Part shown: piece after piece, positions 2,192-9,030 of the stretch
Position numbering within the stretch: the first letter of the stretch is position 1
Layout of the letters: every line of letters starts with the position of its first letter
Assembly: GCA_003166955.1 (NCBI GenBank)
Contig: PMUI01000121.1
Span: 298-64,297, forward strand
From: Acidobacterium sp.
Lineage (GTDB): Bacteria > Acidobacteriota > Terriglobia > Terriglobales > Acidobacteriaceae
Reading direction: 5' to 3'
Length of the DNA: 64,000 nucleotides
The notes under the pieces: model-generated
The model's input: the letters and a program-made list of their open reading frames with translations, nothing else
What the model was told of the DNA's origin: nothing
Databases searched by the model: none
Program-made: the position numbers and the translations under genes

Positions 2192-3880
2192 CTACTGGAA
2201 TCTGCGGCTGAGTTCGCCGAAATCGATGCCGGCCACAAAGCGCTGCGCCTCCACCGTAAGCTCCTCGTAGATCGCCGCCTGGTCGCCTGCCTTGTGGGGT
2301 CTGTCGATCCTGAAGAAAATCGGGATGGCGCGATGGCCAGGGCTCTCAAAGTTGGGTGGATTCAGAAGGAACCGCATATCGATTTTCGGCCGCGGTTGGG
2401 ACGGTATACACCCCCCCGGCGTGCAGAACGCATTCCCCCCAATACTGTCGGTCACCCCGTCGGTATAGAAAGCGGTGTCAAACTGCGTCGGTCGCCCCCC
2501 CGCGGTGAGGAACATCGTATCGCCACGCATGAGCGGATCCTCGCCGCGAGCGATCCAGCTCCCGTGCGCGTTGTGTTCCCGCGACAGCAACCAGACCCCG
2601 AGCGTCACCTCGTGGGCCGACCCTCCGTCGTAAGCGCCGAGTTCCATCGCGACATGGCTGCCGAAAATTTCCTGCCAGGCGCGGTTCAGCGCATACGCCC
2701 CAACTTGTTTCGGCAGCCGCGCGTCCAGTTCCGTGGTCGTGATGTCGCCGTCGCGCACCTGTGCGGCAAAGTTCTTGCGATAGCTGCGAAGCGCATTCAC
2801 CCCCGGTACCGCGAACAGCAGAGTCACCACAGAAAACACCGCAGCACGCCAGTAGAAAGCCCGCTTCTCGCGTGGACTGAAATCGGCCGTTGCGGCGGAA
2901 GCTCCGGCCGGTTCTCCCCGATCCTCACTCTTTCTGGAGACAACCCACAGGAAGAGCAGGGCCGCGATCAGAAACAGAGTGCCCCCGATCATGTAATCGG
3001 CCCATTTGGCGGAATGTTCGAGCCGGGGATGGCCAGCGGCGATGCGGTAGTACAGCACCAGCGCGCACAGCCGGATGAGGTTGAAAAGATAACCCAGCAT
3101 CACGCCGCCGCAAACATACGCGATCCACCGCCGAAACGTAACCTTCTTGAGATAACCGGTGATTAGAGCAAGGTAACCAAGGGTTAACGCGCCACGGACG
3201 CCGTCGCAGCCCGGCGCAATGAACATGCCGAAGTCAGGCGTGAACATCAGGCGGAGCATCTCTTCTTTGCTGGAGGGCGGAAATCCGATCAGGACCGCAA
3301 AGGAGCGCGCGATATGCGCCGAGAGATTCTGCAAGGGCAGGTCGCCATAGACCAGGGCGCCGTTCGGTACCGGTTGTGCGCATAACAGCAGCGCCAGCGG
3401 AAACCACGCCCGCCGCCAGACGCGCACCCCTCCAAAAAGGAGCACGAAACCGCTGCCGAGCAGATAAAGAGCGATCTTCGGAGCCAGAAAACTGAATTTC
3501 ATCGGGCCCATGAACACGGACCACGCCAGCATGTGCCGGAAGGCGCTCATCGAAAGGCCCACGGTCGCCGGCAGAAGCCCCCACCAGCTCCCACGCAGCT
3601 CCCAGCCGGTTTGCCGCCAGACCCGCAGCGTCAGGATGACGCTGGCGGGCACGATCAGCATCCCGATGGATCGCAGCGGATCGTCGGTCCATACATCCCA
3701 CAGGTTCAGAAGATCCGAGGACAGCCCAATGGCGCCCAGGACAGCGAGAACTGCAATCCACATCCAGGTCGCGCGATCGGTGCGGACCTGAAGATCCGGC
3801 CTGGTATTCGCTTCGGAAGCCGATGGAGCGGAAGAGTCCTGCGCGGCGGCAGATGCGGATTGCAAAACGCCGATTTTCAT
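2192..3880 (-). CDS. Exosortase fused to EpsI-like domain (XrtJ type)
   Basis: Membrane cysteine transpeptidase expected to cleave and anchor proteins bearing a short C-terminal sorting signal in the inner membrane. About eight hydrophobic segments span residues 40-320. The exosortase triad is readable: Cys225 in APGCDGVRG, Arg270 in NLIR, and His284 or His289 in HPRLEH. Residues ~340-562 form a soluble EpsI-like domain after one more membrane segment. At 562 aa it is longer than stand-alone exosortases, matching the fused architecture I recall for the acidobacterial XrtJ subfamily. The divergent neighbour at 4165 carries a DSPENPT motif, which supports that assignment. No good ribosome site precedes the ATG at 3880, so a slightly different start is possible. 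Confidence 0.85.
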   Translation of the reverse strand: MKIGVLQSASAAAQDSSAPSASEANTRPDLQVRTDRATWMWIAVLAVLGAIGLSSDLLNLWDVWTDDPLRSIGMLIVPASVILTLRVWRQTGWELRGSWWGLLPATVGLSMSAFRHMLAWSVFMGPMKFSFLAPKIALYLLGSGFVLLFGGVRVWRRAWFPLALLLCAQPVPNGALVYGDLPLQNLSAHIARSFAVLIGFPPSSKEEMLRLMFTPDFGMFIAPGCDGVRGALTLGYLALITGYLKKVTFRRWIAYVCGGVMLGYLFNLIRLCALVLYYRIAAGHPRLEHSAKWADYMIGGTLFLIAALLFLWVVSRKSEDRGEPAGASAATADFSPREKRAFYWRAAVFSVVTLLFAVPGVNALRSYRKNFAAQVRDGDITTTELDARLPKQVGAYALNRAWQEIFGSHVAMELGAYDGGSAHEVTLGVWLLSREHNAHGSWIARGEDPLMRGDTMFLTAGGRPTQFDTAFYTDGVTDSIGGNAFCTPGGCIPSQPRPKIDMRFLLNPPNFESPGHRAIPIFFRIDRPHKAGDQAAIYEELTVEAQRFVAGIDFGELSRRFQ

Positions 3881-4017
3881 ACTGTATTCAGGGGACGTGG
3901 CGCTGCCATTTTAGCCGTTCGGCCTGGGGCCGACAATGGCGATTTGGGGTGTTACTTTGCACTTCTGTCCTGTTCTCAGGCGTGGTTGAGAATTACCATA
4001 AACCTCAAAAATTTACT

Positions 4018-4047
4018 TTGCTGAGCGGACCCCAGCGGCGCTATGAT
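4018..4047 (+). promoter_or_regulatory. Candidate sigma-70 promoter for the DSPENPT gene
   Basis: TTGCTG (4018-4023) and TATGAT (4042-4047) are separated by 18 bp. They lie in the 284-bp divergent spacer between the exosortase gene and the small gene at 4165, in a locally AT-richer stretch. A transcript from here would have a leader of about 110 nt. Nothing else in this spacer could be identified. Confidence 0.4.
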
Positions 4048-4164
4048 AGTGATCCCCACAGGGACCATTTTGGGATGCGATTTGGTTTGCCTCTTGTCAA
4101 GAGCGGCGGGCGTTGGACCGCAGTCACCCAGAATTCGCCCCCCCGGGGTGTTTGGAGGACCGCC

Positions 4165-4365
4165 TTGATTAAGTTCAGAGCCATCGTTCCCGTCGCTCTG
4201 CTCGTCGCCGTAACCGCTGTCCGGCTTCACGCCCAGATCACCGGGTGCGACGACTCGCCGGAGAACCCAACCCTCGTCCTGGGCCTGATTGTGGGCGCGG
4301 CCGGCTTCGGCTATTCGTGGGTCCGCAGATACATCCAGGTTCGCAAACACTCGAAGGACGAATAA
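4165..4365 (+). CDS. Small TM-DSPENPT-TM protein, exosortase partner
   Basis: A 66-residue protein starting at TTG 4165, chosen because GGAGG (4154-4158) sits 6 nt upstream; the frame stays open further 5' but without a ribosome site. Layout: hydrophobic segment at residues 6-22 ending LHAQ (signal peptide or membrane anchor), then CDDSPENPT (28-36), a second hydrophobic segment (37-53), and a basic tail RRYIQVRKHSKDE. This motif, membrane helix and Arg/Lys tail follow the logic of PEP-CTERM-like sorting signals. I recall a small acidobacterial family described as XrtJ-associated TM-motif-TM proteins with the same central motif. Being divergent from the exosortase gene, it is either its substrate or a structural partner; the sequence does not say which. 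Confidence 0.8.
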   Translation: MIKFRAIVPVALLVAVTAVRLHAQITGCDDSPENPTLVLGLIVGAAGFGYSWVRRYIQVRKHSKDE

Positions 4366-4500: not shown

Positions 4501-6438
4501 ATGCGTTTCGCCTGGACGCTCCTCGCTGGTGCGGCGCTCCTTGTCACCGGTTGCTCGGTGGCGACGACGACCTCAACCCAGCAAAAGAATCTCGACACGA
4601 ACACCGTTCCGTTCTCCGGAATGGTCCATGGAGGACAGCAGCCCATTAATGGGGCGAAGGTCTATCTCCTCGCCGTAAACGCGTCCAGCGGCGGATATGG
4701 CAAGGCCTCCACCTCGCTGCTGACGGGCACCGGCAACAGCGACAGCATCGGGTCGTATGTGCTCACCAACGCGACTGGCGGTTTCACCATCGCAGCCGAC
4801 GAGTTCTCCTGTTCCGGGGGTCAGGTCTATCTCTACTCCCTGGGCGGCAGCGCGGGGTTTGGCGATAGTGACGCCATCGGACTGATGGCGGTCCTCGGCC
4901 AGTGCACCGACAGCAGTTTCTCCGGTCTGCCGGCTATGGTCCAGATGAATGAAGTGACCACAGTGGCGGCGGCCTGGGCCCTGGCCGGCTATGCCACCGA
5001 CGCGACGCACATGTCGGGACCGACCTCGACGGCAGCCGCTACGGGGATGGCGAATGCGGCATTGAACGCCGCCAACCTCGCCAACATCGGTACGGGTCTG
5101 GCGTACTCCACCACGCCGGGCGGCAACGGGACGGTGCCGCGGAGCAAGATCAACACGCTGGCCGATATTCTGGCATCGTGCATCAACAGCGCGACCGGCG
5201 CCACCGGTTGCAGCACGCTGTTCGTGGCAGCCGAGAACGGCAGCGGCGCCCAGCCCACTGACACCGCAACAGCCGCCATTAACATCGCGCACAAACCGGG
5301 GGCCAACATTGCTGCTCTCTACGGCCTGGCGACACCCAGCGCACCATTTCAACCCAGCCTGACCAGCCTGCCGAACGACTGGTTGATCGGCGTGACCTAC
5401 AACGGCGGTGGACTGAGCTCCAATTGCAGCGGTGAGCCGTGTTCCCCTGGGCCGCTCGCCCTCGACGCCTCCGGCCATGTGTGGGTCGGGAATTATTTTG
5501 GCGAAGTCACCGAGCTCTCCAATACCGGCGCGGCTCTTTCGCCTGTAGCCGGGTATACCGGAGGAGGGTCTCTGGAGGAGAGCTACGGCCTTGCGGTGAA
5601 TTCCGATGGGAGTGTCTGGGTGACAGACCAGCAGAGCGCCAGCGGCGTGAACGGCGGCGACGGAGCCGTCACCGTGCTCAGTGCCGCCGATCCGAGTTCT
5701 GCCAGTCCGTCAGTTTATTCCACGGGCGGGATCTACTTCCCCGAGGCGATTGCCGCCGATACGAATGGCGACGTCTGGGTTGCCAATTATGGAGACGGCA
5801 GCGCAACGCTGTTTAATTCGTCCGGAACTGCGGTTTTGGGAAGCCCATTTGCTTCCGGTCAGATGGCGGGCCCGACCGCGGTCGCGATCGATGCAAACCA
5901 CAACGCATGGTTTCCCGATCAGGGCGCCGCAACCCCGTCGGCGACCTCGGTCTCTCCGAGTGGAACCGTGAACACATACGACACGGGTGGTTCGGAGCCT
6001 TCTGGAATCGCGACCGACGCTGTCAATAGTGGCGGCTCCGAGGGCCACGTCTGGGTTGCCAATTACTATTCGAACACGGTCAGCGAACTGCAGATTGGAT
6101 CCGGCGGAGCGGTCACCGTGACCTCCACCGGCTACAGCGGTGGTGGTATCGATCATCCGAATAACCTCGCCGTCGATGGCGCGGGAAATGTCTGGATCAC
6201 CAATTACCGTGGCAACTCGATCTCCGAGCTGGAGGGGGCGAGTGGCACCGCGGGAACGGCGATCTCGCCCAGCACCGGCTACGGCGCCGACGCTCCGCTG
6301 AGCACGCCCTATGCTCTCGCCATCGACCCCAGTGGCAACGTCTGGGTGTCCAATTTCGGCGGGAATACGGTGACTCAGTTCGTGGGCGCGGCCGCGCCGG
6401 TCAAGACTCCGCTGCTGGGCCCGCCGTCGCTTCCCTGA
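4501..6438 (+). CDS. NHL/Vgb-like beta-propeller lipoprotein
   Basis: 645 residues from ATG 4501. This start was chosen because GGAG lies 8 nt upstream and it opens directly into a lipoprotein signal peptide with lipobox LVTG-Cys18; the frame is open 120 nt further upstream but that part does not look coding. Residues ~45-330 are an alanine/threonine-rich region. From ~335 onward there are repeated blades with GHVWVGNY, SVWVTDQ, DVWVANYGD, GHVWVANYYSN, NVWITNYRGN and NVWVSNFGGN, typical of NHL or virginiamycin-B-lyase-like propellers. It is expected to be outer-membrane anchored or surface exposed. No enzymatic residues are recognisable. Its last 38 bases overlap the 3' end of the convergent GNAT gene. 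Confidence 0.75.
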   Translation: MRFAWTLLAGAALLVTGCSVATTTSTQQKNLDTNTVPFSGMVHGGQQPINGAKVYLLAVNASSGGYGKASTSLLTGTGNSDSIGSYVLTNATGGFTIAADEFSCSGGQVYLYSLGGSAGFGDSDAIGLMAVLGQCTDSSFSGLPAMVQMNEVTTVAAAWALAGYATDATHMSGPTSTAAATGMANAALNAANLANIGTGLAYSTTPGGNGTVPRSKINTLADILASCINSATGATGCSTLFVAAENGSGAQPTDTATAAINIAHKPGANIAALYGLATPSAPFQPSLTSLPNDWLIGVTYNGGGLSSNCSGEPCSPGPLALDASGHVWVGNYFGEVTELSNTGAALSPVAGYTGGGSLEESYGLAVNSDGSVWVTDQQSASGVNGGDGAVTVLSAADPSSASPSVYSTGGIYFPEAIAADTNGDVWVANYGDGSATLFNSSGTAVLGSPFASGQMAGPTAVAIDANHNAWFPDQGAATPSATSVSPSGTVNTYDTGGSEPSGIATDAVNSGGSEGHVWVANYYSNTVSELQIGSGGAVTVTSTGYSGGGIDHPNNLAVDGAGNVWITNYRGNSISELEGASGTAGTAISPSTGYGADAPLSTPYALAIDPSGNVWVSNFGGNTVTQFVGAAAPVKTPLLGPPSLP

Positions 6439-7695: not shown

Positions 7696-9030
7696 ATGTT
7701 GATTCTATACAGTTTTGCCCTGGTGGCGCTGCTGGTACTGGGTGCTCCGTGGTGGCTGTTTCGCATGGCCACCAGCGGCAAATATCGCGAAGGTTTGACG
7801 GAGAGGCTCGGCTTTTTGCCGCAGCGCATTCGCGAAGCGCTCGACGGCCGCAATGTCGTCTGGGTTCACGCCGTTTCCGTGGGGGAAGTGCTGGCAGCCG
7901 GCCGCTTGATCGACGATCTCGGGTCAAGGTTGGCGGAATCTGCCGGAGAGCGTGCGGTGGATCGCTGGCGCGTGATGATTTCGACGACGACGCGGACAGG
8001 GCAGGAACTGGCACGGCGGCGTTTTGGCGCGGATCGCGTGTTCTATTTCCCACTGGATCTTGCCTGGCCGGTACGGTCGTGGCTGCGGGCCTTGCGTCCG
8101 AAGCTGCTGGTGCTGGTGGAGACGGAATTTTGGCCGCGCATGCTGACCGAATGCCGTCGCAACGCGATCCCCGTCGCGGTGGTCAATGCGCGCATCTCGG
8201 ATCGCTCCTGGCCGCGCTACCGCAGGTTCGCGTCGATGTGGCGGCCTCTGCTGCGCGATCTGGCCGCCGTTCTGGCCCAAACCGAGCTGGATGCAGACCG
8301 CCTGCGAGCCCTGGGCGCAGGCCGTGTGCGCGTCGCCGGCAACCTCAAATACGATGTGCGCGCGGGCGGATCGTCTGCGATCACAGCAATGCTGCACAAA
8401 TTCCTCTCCCCCGGCGCCCGTGTGCTGGTTTGCGGATCGACGCTCGCCGGCGAAGAGGAAATGCTGCTCGATGCTCTGCCGCCGAACATCGTCACTGTGC
8501 TCGCGCCACGCCACCCGGAGCGCTTTGGCGAGGTCGCTGAGATTCTGAAAAAGCGCGCAGCAAATTGGGTGCGGCGCTCGGAATGGGCCCAGTCTCCTCG
8601 CGCAATCGAGCCTGGAACTGTGTTTCTGCTCGATTCGATCGGAGAGCTGGCGTCGATCTACTTCCTGGCGCATGCAGCATTTGTCGGTGGAAGCCTCGTG
8701 CCTGCCGGCGGACATAATCCCCTCGAAGCCGCGCAGTTCGCGGTTCCCGTTGTGATGGGCCCGAGCTATGAAAACTTTCGTGGCATCGTCGACAAGCTGC
8801 GCGAGCGCGATGCGATTCGAATCGTCGAGCCCGGCGAATTAAAAGCGGCCTTGCCGGCAATGCTGTCCGGCTCAGAAGAGTCGCGCGCCATCGGTGCGCG
8901 CGCCCGCGAAGTGTTCGAGCGCGAAGCGGGAGCGACGGAGCGCGCGGTGCGGGCGCTGCTGGAGCTCGTCATCTCTCCGTTGTCGAACCCGGCAATCCAG
9001 CGGCGATCGCAACAGGAGGCCCAGACGTGA
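7696..9030 (+). CDS. waaA: 3-deoxy-D-manno-octulosonic acid transferase
   Basis: Transfers Kdo from CMP-Kdo to the lipid A precursor at the inner face of the cytoplasmic membrane. 444 aa, normal for the family. Residues 1-22 form a membrane anchor, followed by the GT30 domain with VWVHAVSVGEV containing the catalytic-base Glu64, then VLVETEFWPRML, GSTLAGEEEM and the C-terminal nucleotide-sugar motif GGHNPLEAAQFAVPVVMGP. It heads an envelope operon: its TGA overlaps the GTG of lpxK. Upstream there is AGGAAGG, but it is spaced 18 nt from the ATG, so the ribosome site is weak. Confidence 0.93.
   Translation: MLILYSFALVALLVLGAPWWLFRMATSGKYREGLTERLGFLPQRIREALDGRNVVWVHAVSVGEVLAAGRLIDDLGSRLAESAGERAVDRWRVMISTTTRTGQELARRRFGADRVFYFPLDLAWPVRSWLRALRPKLLVLVETEFWPRMLTECRRNAIPVAVVNARISDRSWPRYRRFASMWRPLLRDLAAVLAQTELDADRLRALGAGRVRVAGNLKYDVRAGGSSAITAMLHKFLSPGARVLVCGSTLAGEEEMLLDALPPNIVTVLAPRHPERFGEVAEILKKRAANWVRRSEWAQSPRAIEPGTVFLLDSIGELASIYFLAHAAFVGGSLVPAGGHNPLEAAQFAVPVVMGPSYENFRGIVDKLRERDAIRIVEPGELKAALPAMLSGSEESRAIGARAREVFEREAGATERAVRALLELVISPLSNPAIQRRSQQEAQT

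Follow-up and report, generated by a model that had tools for sequence, protein, structure and literature searches.

What does an exosortase do with a partner protein that resembles a sorting tail and is too short to carry a passenger? The question is raised by a 64,000-nucleotide stretch of DNA from a soil acidobacterium (Acidobacterium sp., assembly GCA_003166955.1, contig PMUI01000121.1; hereafter, the window), in which an exosortase gene, xrtJ, lies divergent from a gene for a 66-residue membrane protein (hereafter, the micro-protein). An earlier interpretation from the letters alone (the sequence-only reading) had offered three options for the micro-protein: a dedicated substrate, a subunit of the exosortase, or a signalling peptide released by cleavage. 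Our analyses favour the first of these. We consider it probable that the pair consists of a dedicated exosortase and its minimal, mostly passenger-less substrate, which would be trimmed to a short thiol peptide at the cell surface. This reading is based on family membership, conservation, the rarity of passengers, co-occurrence, gene linkage, and invariant residues. The pair itself is known but unexplained, and its copies in relatives often travel with genes for a surface lipoprotein or for the export of a sugar polymer.

The xrtJ gene (positions 2192..3880, minus strand) encodes exosortase J, a 562-residue protein with a multi-helix exosortase core and a fused C-terminal soluble domain. Its product matched the hidden Markov model TIGR04199 with 401.1 bits (NCBIfam cut-off 200; E 8.5e-120) over residues 42-559 and model positions 1-520 of 522, which bears out the XrtJ type proposed by the sequence-only reading. 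PF09721 matched the exosortase core with 111 bits in a Pfam scan, in which two further matches were below the cut-off. The micro-protein gene (4165..4365, plus strand, stop codon included) is separated from xrtJ by 284 bp, starts with TTG, and is preceded, six bases before the start, by a GGAGG ribosome-binding site seen in the sequence (4154..4158, plus strand). The micro-protein matched TIGR04200, "PExPT-CTERM protein" with the short name targ_of_XrtJ, with 59.5 bits (cut-off 40; E 2e-16). The small divergent gene had thus been correctly recognized, and the XrtJ-linked small family to which that reading referred is TIGR04200; its remark that no role had been assigned to the family no longer holds insofar as the NCBIfam short name makes it the target of XrtJ. 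When the micro-protein was scanned against NCBIfam at E up to 10, TIGR04200 was the sole match listed, and Pfam gave nothing at E up to 1, PEP-CTERM (PF07589) included. With both models matched over their cut-offs, the window pair is a member of the already catalogued TIGR04199/TIGR04200 pair of families.

The micro-protein shows the layout of TIGR04200, namely a signal peptide predicted by a simple rule, a PExPT motif, a helix, and a basic end; as had been noted from the letters, the order of motif, helix and basic tail occurs here in a protein too short for a passenger. The predicted signal peptide comprises residues 1-23 (4165..4233, plus strand), with cleavage between LHA and Q according to an AxA-like rule applied without SignalP. 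It is followed by the predicted extracytoplasmic stretch QITGCDDSPENPT (residues 24-36; 4234..4272, plus strand), which includes Cys28 at 4246-4248, and by the hydrophobic helix and basic end of the sorting tail (4273..4362, plus strand), delimited from the sequence and the alignment. The sequence ITGC resembles a lipobox, and a lipoprotein reading of the micro-protein was considered. It was set aside because the distance between the hydrophobic stretch and the Cys varies among copies (AQTGC, AQITGC, AQGGEITSGTC) and because an AxA site followed by Q precedes the Cys.

The position of this Cys is uniform. In public genomes, the pattern (D/N)SPE(N/C/A)PTx(I/V)L was found at 65 loci, and together with the five copies of the source genome 71 tails were available. 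The Cys lies exactly three residues before the Ser in all 71, at a position outside the search pattern, and the same Cys was present in a set of 38 tails from the tail-profile survey (several of these are records already among the 71, and in one Leu replaces the Ser). The sole tail read without it is that of genome G304 (RRRRSPENPT), whose exosortase has no fused domain and which has a separate EpsI without a CX4C pair. This single contrast predicts that the substrate Cys and the CX4C pair of the XrtJ C-terminal domain, described below, would go together. An AxA-like signal-peptidase site was found by a loose rule in 69 of the 71 tails and was missing in two; by the simple rule, the distance from this site to PT is 12-15 residues in 63 of the 71. 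In L211, the site was misplaced because the AxA rule looks back only 18 residues. Removal of the signal peptide should therefore leave about 12-15 residues around the invariant Cys. Two orphan tails, L187 and L216 (= L088 and L087), lie near a MerR-tetratricopeptide repeat (TPR) regulator; L187 has two tails in tandem after a DUF6599 protein.

Passengers are rare. A tail-only profile gave at least 105 matches in 62 of 398 genomes of the window's family, and 94 of the 105 are in open frames of 150 residues or fewer (not each read). We read each of the 11 tails in longer frames. In nine of them, a start codon lies some 25-30 residues ahead of the Cys, which makes them micro-proteins (the nearby start was confirmed for L303 and L305); the other two have a low-complexity passenger. 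In one of the latter (G590:C217, = L211), the Cys is preceded by about 36 residues rich in Q, N, and G. The other (G525:C107; L308:9266-9961) is a 192-residue protein, counted from its ATG, with a signal peptide, collagen-like Gly-Pro repeats, and a GCSDSPENAT tail. The open reading frame (ORF) after it resembles, by eye, a MerR-type regulator. The occurrence of the same tail on these two proteins suggests that it is a portable sorting signal, mostly used without a passenger. When 21 genomes were searched with a limit of E 1, only weak matches came up in addition to the known tails: the best (E 0.005) was judged to be noise, and the next (E 0.016) was a broken copy on contig C38 of the source genome. 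Longer passengers in weak matches (L007, L008, L009, L022, L023, L024, L026, L075, and G147:C1) were dismissed as noise by eye; the reading covered matches other than the remaining weak ones (E 0.04 or worse) and the sub-cut-off loci L025, L027-L031, and L076-L079.

The source genome (G000; 5.41 Mb in 142 contigs) encodes five proteins over the TIGR04200 cut-off, on contigs C90 (the window), C81, C79, and C34 (two), and all five start with TTG or GTG after a Shine-Dalgarno-like stretch. It has one exosortase only in a search at E 1e-5, and no second exosortase or other PEP-CTERM system was found at that threshold or over cut-off; PF07589 gave one match, below its cut-off (E 0.83). The sorting tail was found on no longer protein of this genome in these searches, a survey that the sequence-only reading had called for and whose outcome speaks for its proposal. 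The sixth, broken copy on C38, beside a lipoprotein gene, gave E 5.3 in the genome search and scored 25 bits in another comparison. Over residues 24-50, nine of the ten pairs of the five copies showed proportions of nonsynonymous differences (pN) of 0.02-0.09 against 0.23-0.64 for synonymous differences (pS); in the closest pair, the two copies on C34, pS was 0.00 and pN 0.05. The contrast was weaker over the first 55 codons (pN/pS 0.22-0.62), and the signal-peptide part is therefore freer than residues 24-50.

XrtJ and the tail also occur together among genomes. As at most 21, 30, 13 or 19 candidates per genome were scored in the genome searches, the counts of tails and lipoproteins given here are lower bounds. 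Among 297 genomes of the phylum, at least 13 exceeded the TIGR04200 cut-off, all within the window's family. In 200 genomes of that family, XrtJ was over cut-off in 13 and TIGR04200 in 16, and all 13 were among the 16; the tail was thus present in 13/13 genomes with XrtJ versus 3/187 of the others (Fisher p 6e-18, not corrected for relatedness). Like the pN/pS contrast, this co-occurrence exceeds what chance would give. The small gene is conserved beside XrtJ in relatives, and the lack of such conservation that might have spoken against the earlier proposal was not observed. The three tail genomes without XrtJ over cut-off are G326, in which the exosortase is in pieces and below the cut-off, G304, in which an XrtA-like exosortase adjoins the tail, and G373. 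That two of the three have a broken or divergent exosortase beside the tail supports the dedicated-substrate reading. Neither model was matched over cut-off in 14 control genomes or in the seven genus-mates in the 200-genome survey, one of which (G324) gave a weak TIGR04200 match, and eleven genus-mates had no tail in the tail-profile survey; the system is sporadic in this genus. Tails were also seen in metagenome-assembled genomes titled Rhodanobacteraceae, Nevskia, and Verrucomicrobia (L168, L174, L176, L181, and L220), which may be mislabelled bins or cases of gene transfer.

The exosortase core of XrtJ was examined in two alignments. The first holds 20 XrtJ sequences, compared with ten other exosortases (nine and the XrtA-like enzyme of G304). 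The second has 46 rows, of which one is the window copy, 39 come from named loci, and 6 from added loci; it includes fragments (3 gapped), and many of its rows are near relatives. Cys225 (3206..3208, minus strand) is present in 20/20 XrtJ sequences and in 43 of the 44 rows with a letter, the remaining row being an off-frame fragment. Arg270 (3071..3073, minus strand) and Asp295 (2996..2998, minus strand), the latter four residues before a Gly, are each present in 20/20 sequences and in 43/43 rows with a letter. The sequence-only reading had named Cys225, Arg270, and a His; the first two stand, and the place of the His is taken by the conserved Asp295, as the candidate His positions 284 and 289 are variable. 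HxxxG in the nine other exosortases has the same spacing as Asp295-Gly in XrtJ, and the alignment put gaps between the two. The G304 enzyme also has Asp at the third polar position before Gly.

The C-terminal domain of XrtJ (residues 384-562; 2192..2731, minus strand, stop codon included) contains three residues, His436, Cys486, and Cys491, that are invariant in the 46-row alignment (each 43/43 rows with a letter), and the two Cys residues form a CX4C pair. The exosortase had been described as fused to an EpsI-like domain. The fusion is confirmed; the EpsI label is weakly supported, since the domain fails the EpsI models and matches an EpsI profile only weakly. The models TIGR02914 and PF11984 gave no match for the window XrtJ (NCBIfam at E up to 10; Pfam at E up to 1), and a profile of the domain aligned with a profile built from 19 EpsI (DUF3485) sequences at a probability of 24.7 and E 7.9e-4; one of the 19 is that of G304, and the other 18 belong to genomes of the phylum. 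Like EpsI, the domain lies C-terminal to an exosortase, and in the profile alignment the EpsI motif HSPxxC falls on HDxxxC of XrtJ. The HxxxxC pattern of EpsI is found in 39/43 XrtJ rows with a letter, which have Cys at position 441; the window copy, with H436 and Ser441, lacks it. Unlike XrtJ, the 19 aligned EpsI sequences do not conserve the CX4C pair. In the G304 locus, EpsI is a separate gene after the divergent exosortase (PF11984, 63 bits). Descent of the XrtJ domain from EpsI is plausible from these comparisons. Stand-alone relatives of the domain were also seen. In L119 (9843-10469; G419), the fetched stretch contains the domain but neither an exosortase core nor a tail; the domain lies among genes that look by eye like RND-type transporter genes and transposase pieces, and is perhaps a remnant; in L092 (9173-9694), a similar domain that keeps HxxxxC and CX4C lies directly 3' of an orphan tail (G356:C36).

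AlphaFold2 modelled the whole XrtJ with a pLDDT of 74.6 and the C-terminal domain alone with 85.9. The best structural neighbours of the domain alone found by VIA were DcrB (Z 9.3; root-mean-square deviation 3.0 over 104 aligned residues), SciW (9.1; 4.2 over 118), and Mog1 (8.3; 3.8 over 132), and VIA also placed SciW and Mog1 on this domain in the whole model (Z 8.2-9.1). The best Foldseek matches of the domain alone were PYL/START-like proteins (PYL receptors) at E 0.026 or worse, and the whole model gave no Foldseek match at E 0.001 or below. SciW has been solved bound to a transmembrane segment. Because the structural Z values are middling, we do not read a function from this fold; the likeness of the model to the Mog1/PsbP/DcrB/SciW-like fold may be no more than a common arrangement.

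The gene neighbourhood, based on gene calls from a crude script that takes the longest ORF, points to two concrete candidate partners, a lipoprotein and, in one subtype, polysaccharide export. In the window, a gene for a 645-residue lipoprotein (4501..6438, plus strand) lies 135 bp downstream of the micro-protein gene in the same direction; the lipoprotein has an NHL propeller, and its N-terminal domain is unnamed. Every tail of the source genome adjoins a copy of this 640-700-residue NHL lipoprotein, and a profile of its N-terminal domain found it in 12 of the 13 XrtJ genomes. In 22 aligned copies, the lipid-site Cys, four further Cys residues, and the C-terminal Pro are invariant. A disulfide bond between the micro-protein and the lipoprotein was considered and is not supported, because the four invariant Cys residues besides the lipid-site one make an even number. 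The lipoprotein copies without an adjoining tail are on C97 (internal stop), C91, C142, C39, C121, C49, and C87, of which those on C91, C142, and C87 are truncated at the end of their contig.

Within 5 kb of the 71 tails, XrtJ was found for 37, the lipoprotein for 38, either for 53, and both for 22. The order of the genes varies: XrtJ is divergent from tail-lipoprotein in the window, and the order is tail-XrtJ-lipoprotein in L101, in Edaphobacter L183-L186, and in others (e.g., Granulicella L193), tail-lipoprotein-XrtJ in L302, L306, and L311, and lipoprotein-tail-XrtJ in L097. As the linkage is kept through these rearrangements, it suggests a functional tie among tail, XrtJ, and lipoprotein. 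The tails with SPECPT form a subtype with other neighbours. In six of the eight loci read, they begin a run of tail, polysaccharide export (Poly_export, SLBB), and chain-length genes, which was identified in L219 by Pfam and NCBIfam (the chain-length match being below the cut-off) and in the other five by similarity to L219. The other two, L208 and L091, are close relatives and adjoin rfbA (assigned by NCBIfam in L208 and by similarity in L091).

From these observations, the following path can be proposed. Sec would export the 66-residue protein, and signal peptidase would remove the first helix (AxA before Q), so that about 13 extracytoplasmic residues, a single helix, and the basic tail remain. 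XrtJ, by means of Cys225, Arg270, and Asp295, would then cut near the SPENPT motif and take the helix away. The product, a Cys peptide of roughly 12 residues, would be set free or else, as has been proposed for other exosortases, attached to an acceptor (membrane or glycan). A probable task of the fused periplasmic domain, with His436, Cys486, and Cys491, is to hold the helix of the substrate or to handle its thiol. The peptide may act with the neighbouring NHL lipoprotein, or with polysaccharide export in the PECPT subtype, and would most likely be a short surface anchor or adaptor. A more specific version, in which the surface-fixed peptide (Q-x-G-C-x-D/N-SPENP) is a reusable anchor in trans for the lipoprotein or the exported polysaccharide and the CX4C/His domain loads or guards its thiol, is doubtful in our estimation; the thiol role of the domain is suggested by the single contrast that the Cys-less G304 tail pairs with an exosortase without a fused CX4C domain.

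Several points weigh against the dedicated-substrate reading. Export, both cleavages, any acceptor, the part played by the thiol, and a functional tie with the lipoprotein or with polysaccharide are inferences. G373, a genome rated complete, has a tail and no detectable exosortase, and two XrtJ genes (L098 and L105) have no tail in the fetched stretch. The linkage is also incomplete: XrtJ and the lipoprotein are both missing within 5 kb of 18 of the 71 tails (some of these lie at the end of a contig), and among the 37 tails beside XrtJ, 15 have no such lipoprotein within that distance. The lipoprotein has many copies elsewhere: of the 187 genomes in which XrtJ is not over cut-off, 17 have it. 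In the source genome, no intact tail adjoins 8 of its roughly 14 copies; one of the eight has a broken tail and three are at contig ends. In six Granulicella-type loci (g7 and one other genus), an Omp85-like gene, so labelled from Pfam on one locus of the six, follows XrtJ instead.

The small size of the micro-protein, the conserved residues of its second helix, and the presence of XrtJ within 5 kb of 37 of the 71 copies are in keeping with a rival reading, in which it serves XrtJ in its intact, two-helix form, as a small subunit in the membrane or as a regulator. The five copies to one XrtJ in the source genome and the 34 of 71 tails without XrtJ within 5 kb are ill suited to a stoichiometric subunit, and favour a substrate; the AxA-like site in 69 of 71 (by the loose rule) and the same tail on two passenger-bearing proteins also argue against an intact partner, so that we regard a subunit as quite unlikely. 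The mature part of about 12-15 residues, the several copies in some genomes, and the two orphan loci near a MerR-TPR regulator would instead fit a precursor of a secreted signalling peptide, with XrtJ as a maturation protease without an anchoring step. Most pheromones vary between species, whereas the core C-x-D/N-SPExPT hardly does; no recurring receptor gene was seen among the neighbours, which were only partly identified, and the genes most commonly linked are those of XrtJ and a surface lipoprotein. We hold this alternative to be unlikely.

A relic origin, in which most copies are decoys or tails left after passenger loss and hitch-hike with duplications of the lipoprotein, would agree with the facts that every copy in the source genome adjoins a lipoprotein gene, that the additional C38 copy is broken, and that a genome with a tail but no exosortase exists. 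It appears very improbable, as pN is far below pS over residues 24-50, the Cys and the SPExPT core are conserved across genera, and the short design is found in the great majority of tails. We therefore retain the reading of the micro-protein as a dedicated substrate.

To our knowledge, the chemistry of bacterial exosortases on their substrates (cut site and attachment) has not been solved, and XrtJ would be an unusually clean model because a single-Cys product of about 12 residues could be read whole by mass spectrometry. In a literature search that mostly left subscription papers outside, we found no work showing any step for XrtJ, no text joining exosortase with XrtJ or with Granulicella or naming PExPT-CTERM, and no paper in which exosortase, PEP-CTERM, and Acidobacteria occur together. 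The novelty is limited because the pair is already catalogued. New relative to the known pair, and found in no paper, are the five micro-proteins for a single exosortase in the source genome, the rarity of passengers, the thiol present in all 71 copies, the invariant His and CX4C pair of the C-terminal domain, the linkage to the lipoprotein in permuted orders, and the polysaccharide subtype; a linkage to lipoprotein or polysaccharide export is not mentioned in the names of the two models. In the named loci that match both models, XrtJ is downstream on the same strand, whereas the window XrtJ is divergent, has Ser441, and is the sole exosortase for five tails.

The better-known sorting systems share some features with the pair. 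PEP-CTERM/EpsH (XrtA; PMC1569441) has the same signal peptide, motif, helix, basic tail, and exosortase core, and a neighbourhood of exopolysaccharide genes; such a neighbourhood is found here in the PECPT subtype and in G304. PEP-CTERM marks many diverse proteins per genome (Haft 2006, PMC1569441), unlike the tails here, which are mostly without a passenger, in a source genome where PF07589 matched nothing over cut-off. MYXO-CTERM resembles the tail in its short motif, its invariant Cys before the helix, and its Arg-rich end, and the motif Cys is needed for cleavage by myxosortase; unlike XrtJ, myxosortase is a CPBP-family protease with dozens of tagged proteins per genome (PMC11980579). Archaeosortase A, the PGF-CTERM enzyme, is exosortase-related, with critical Cys and Arg residues, and cleavage with lipid attachment has been reported for it; it differs from XrtJ in having an S-layer glycoprotein as client and Arg253 as the third critical residue (PMC9263693), which in XrtJ is, by conservation, Asp295.

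Farther along the window, an ORF at 7696-9030 resembles by eye a Kdo transferase (waaA/kdtA), and the locus may thus sit near lipopolysaccharide genes.

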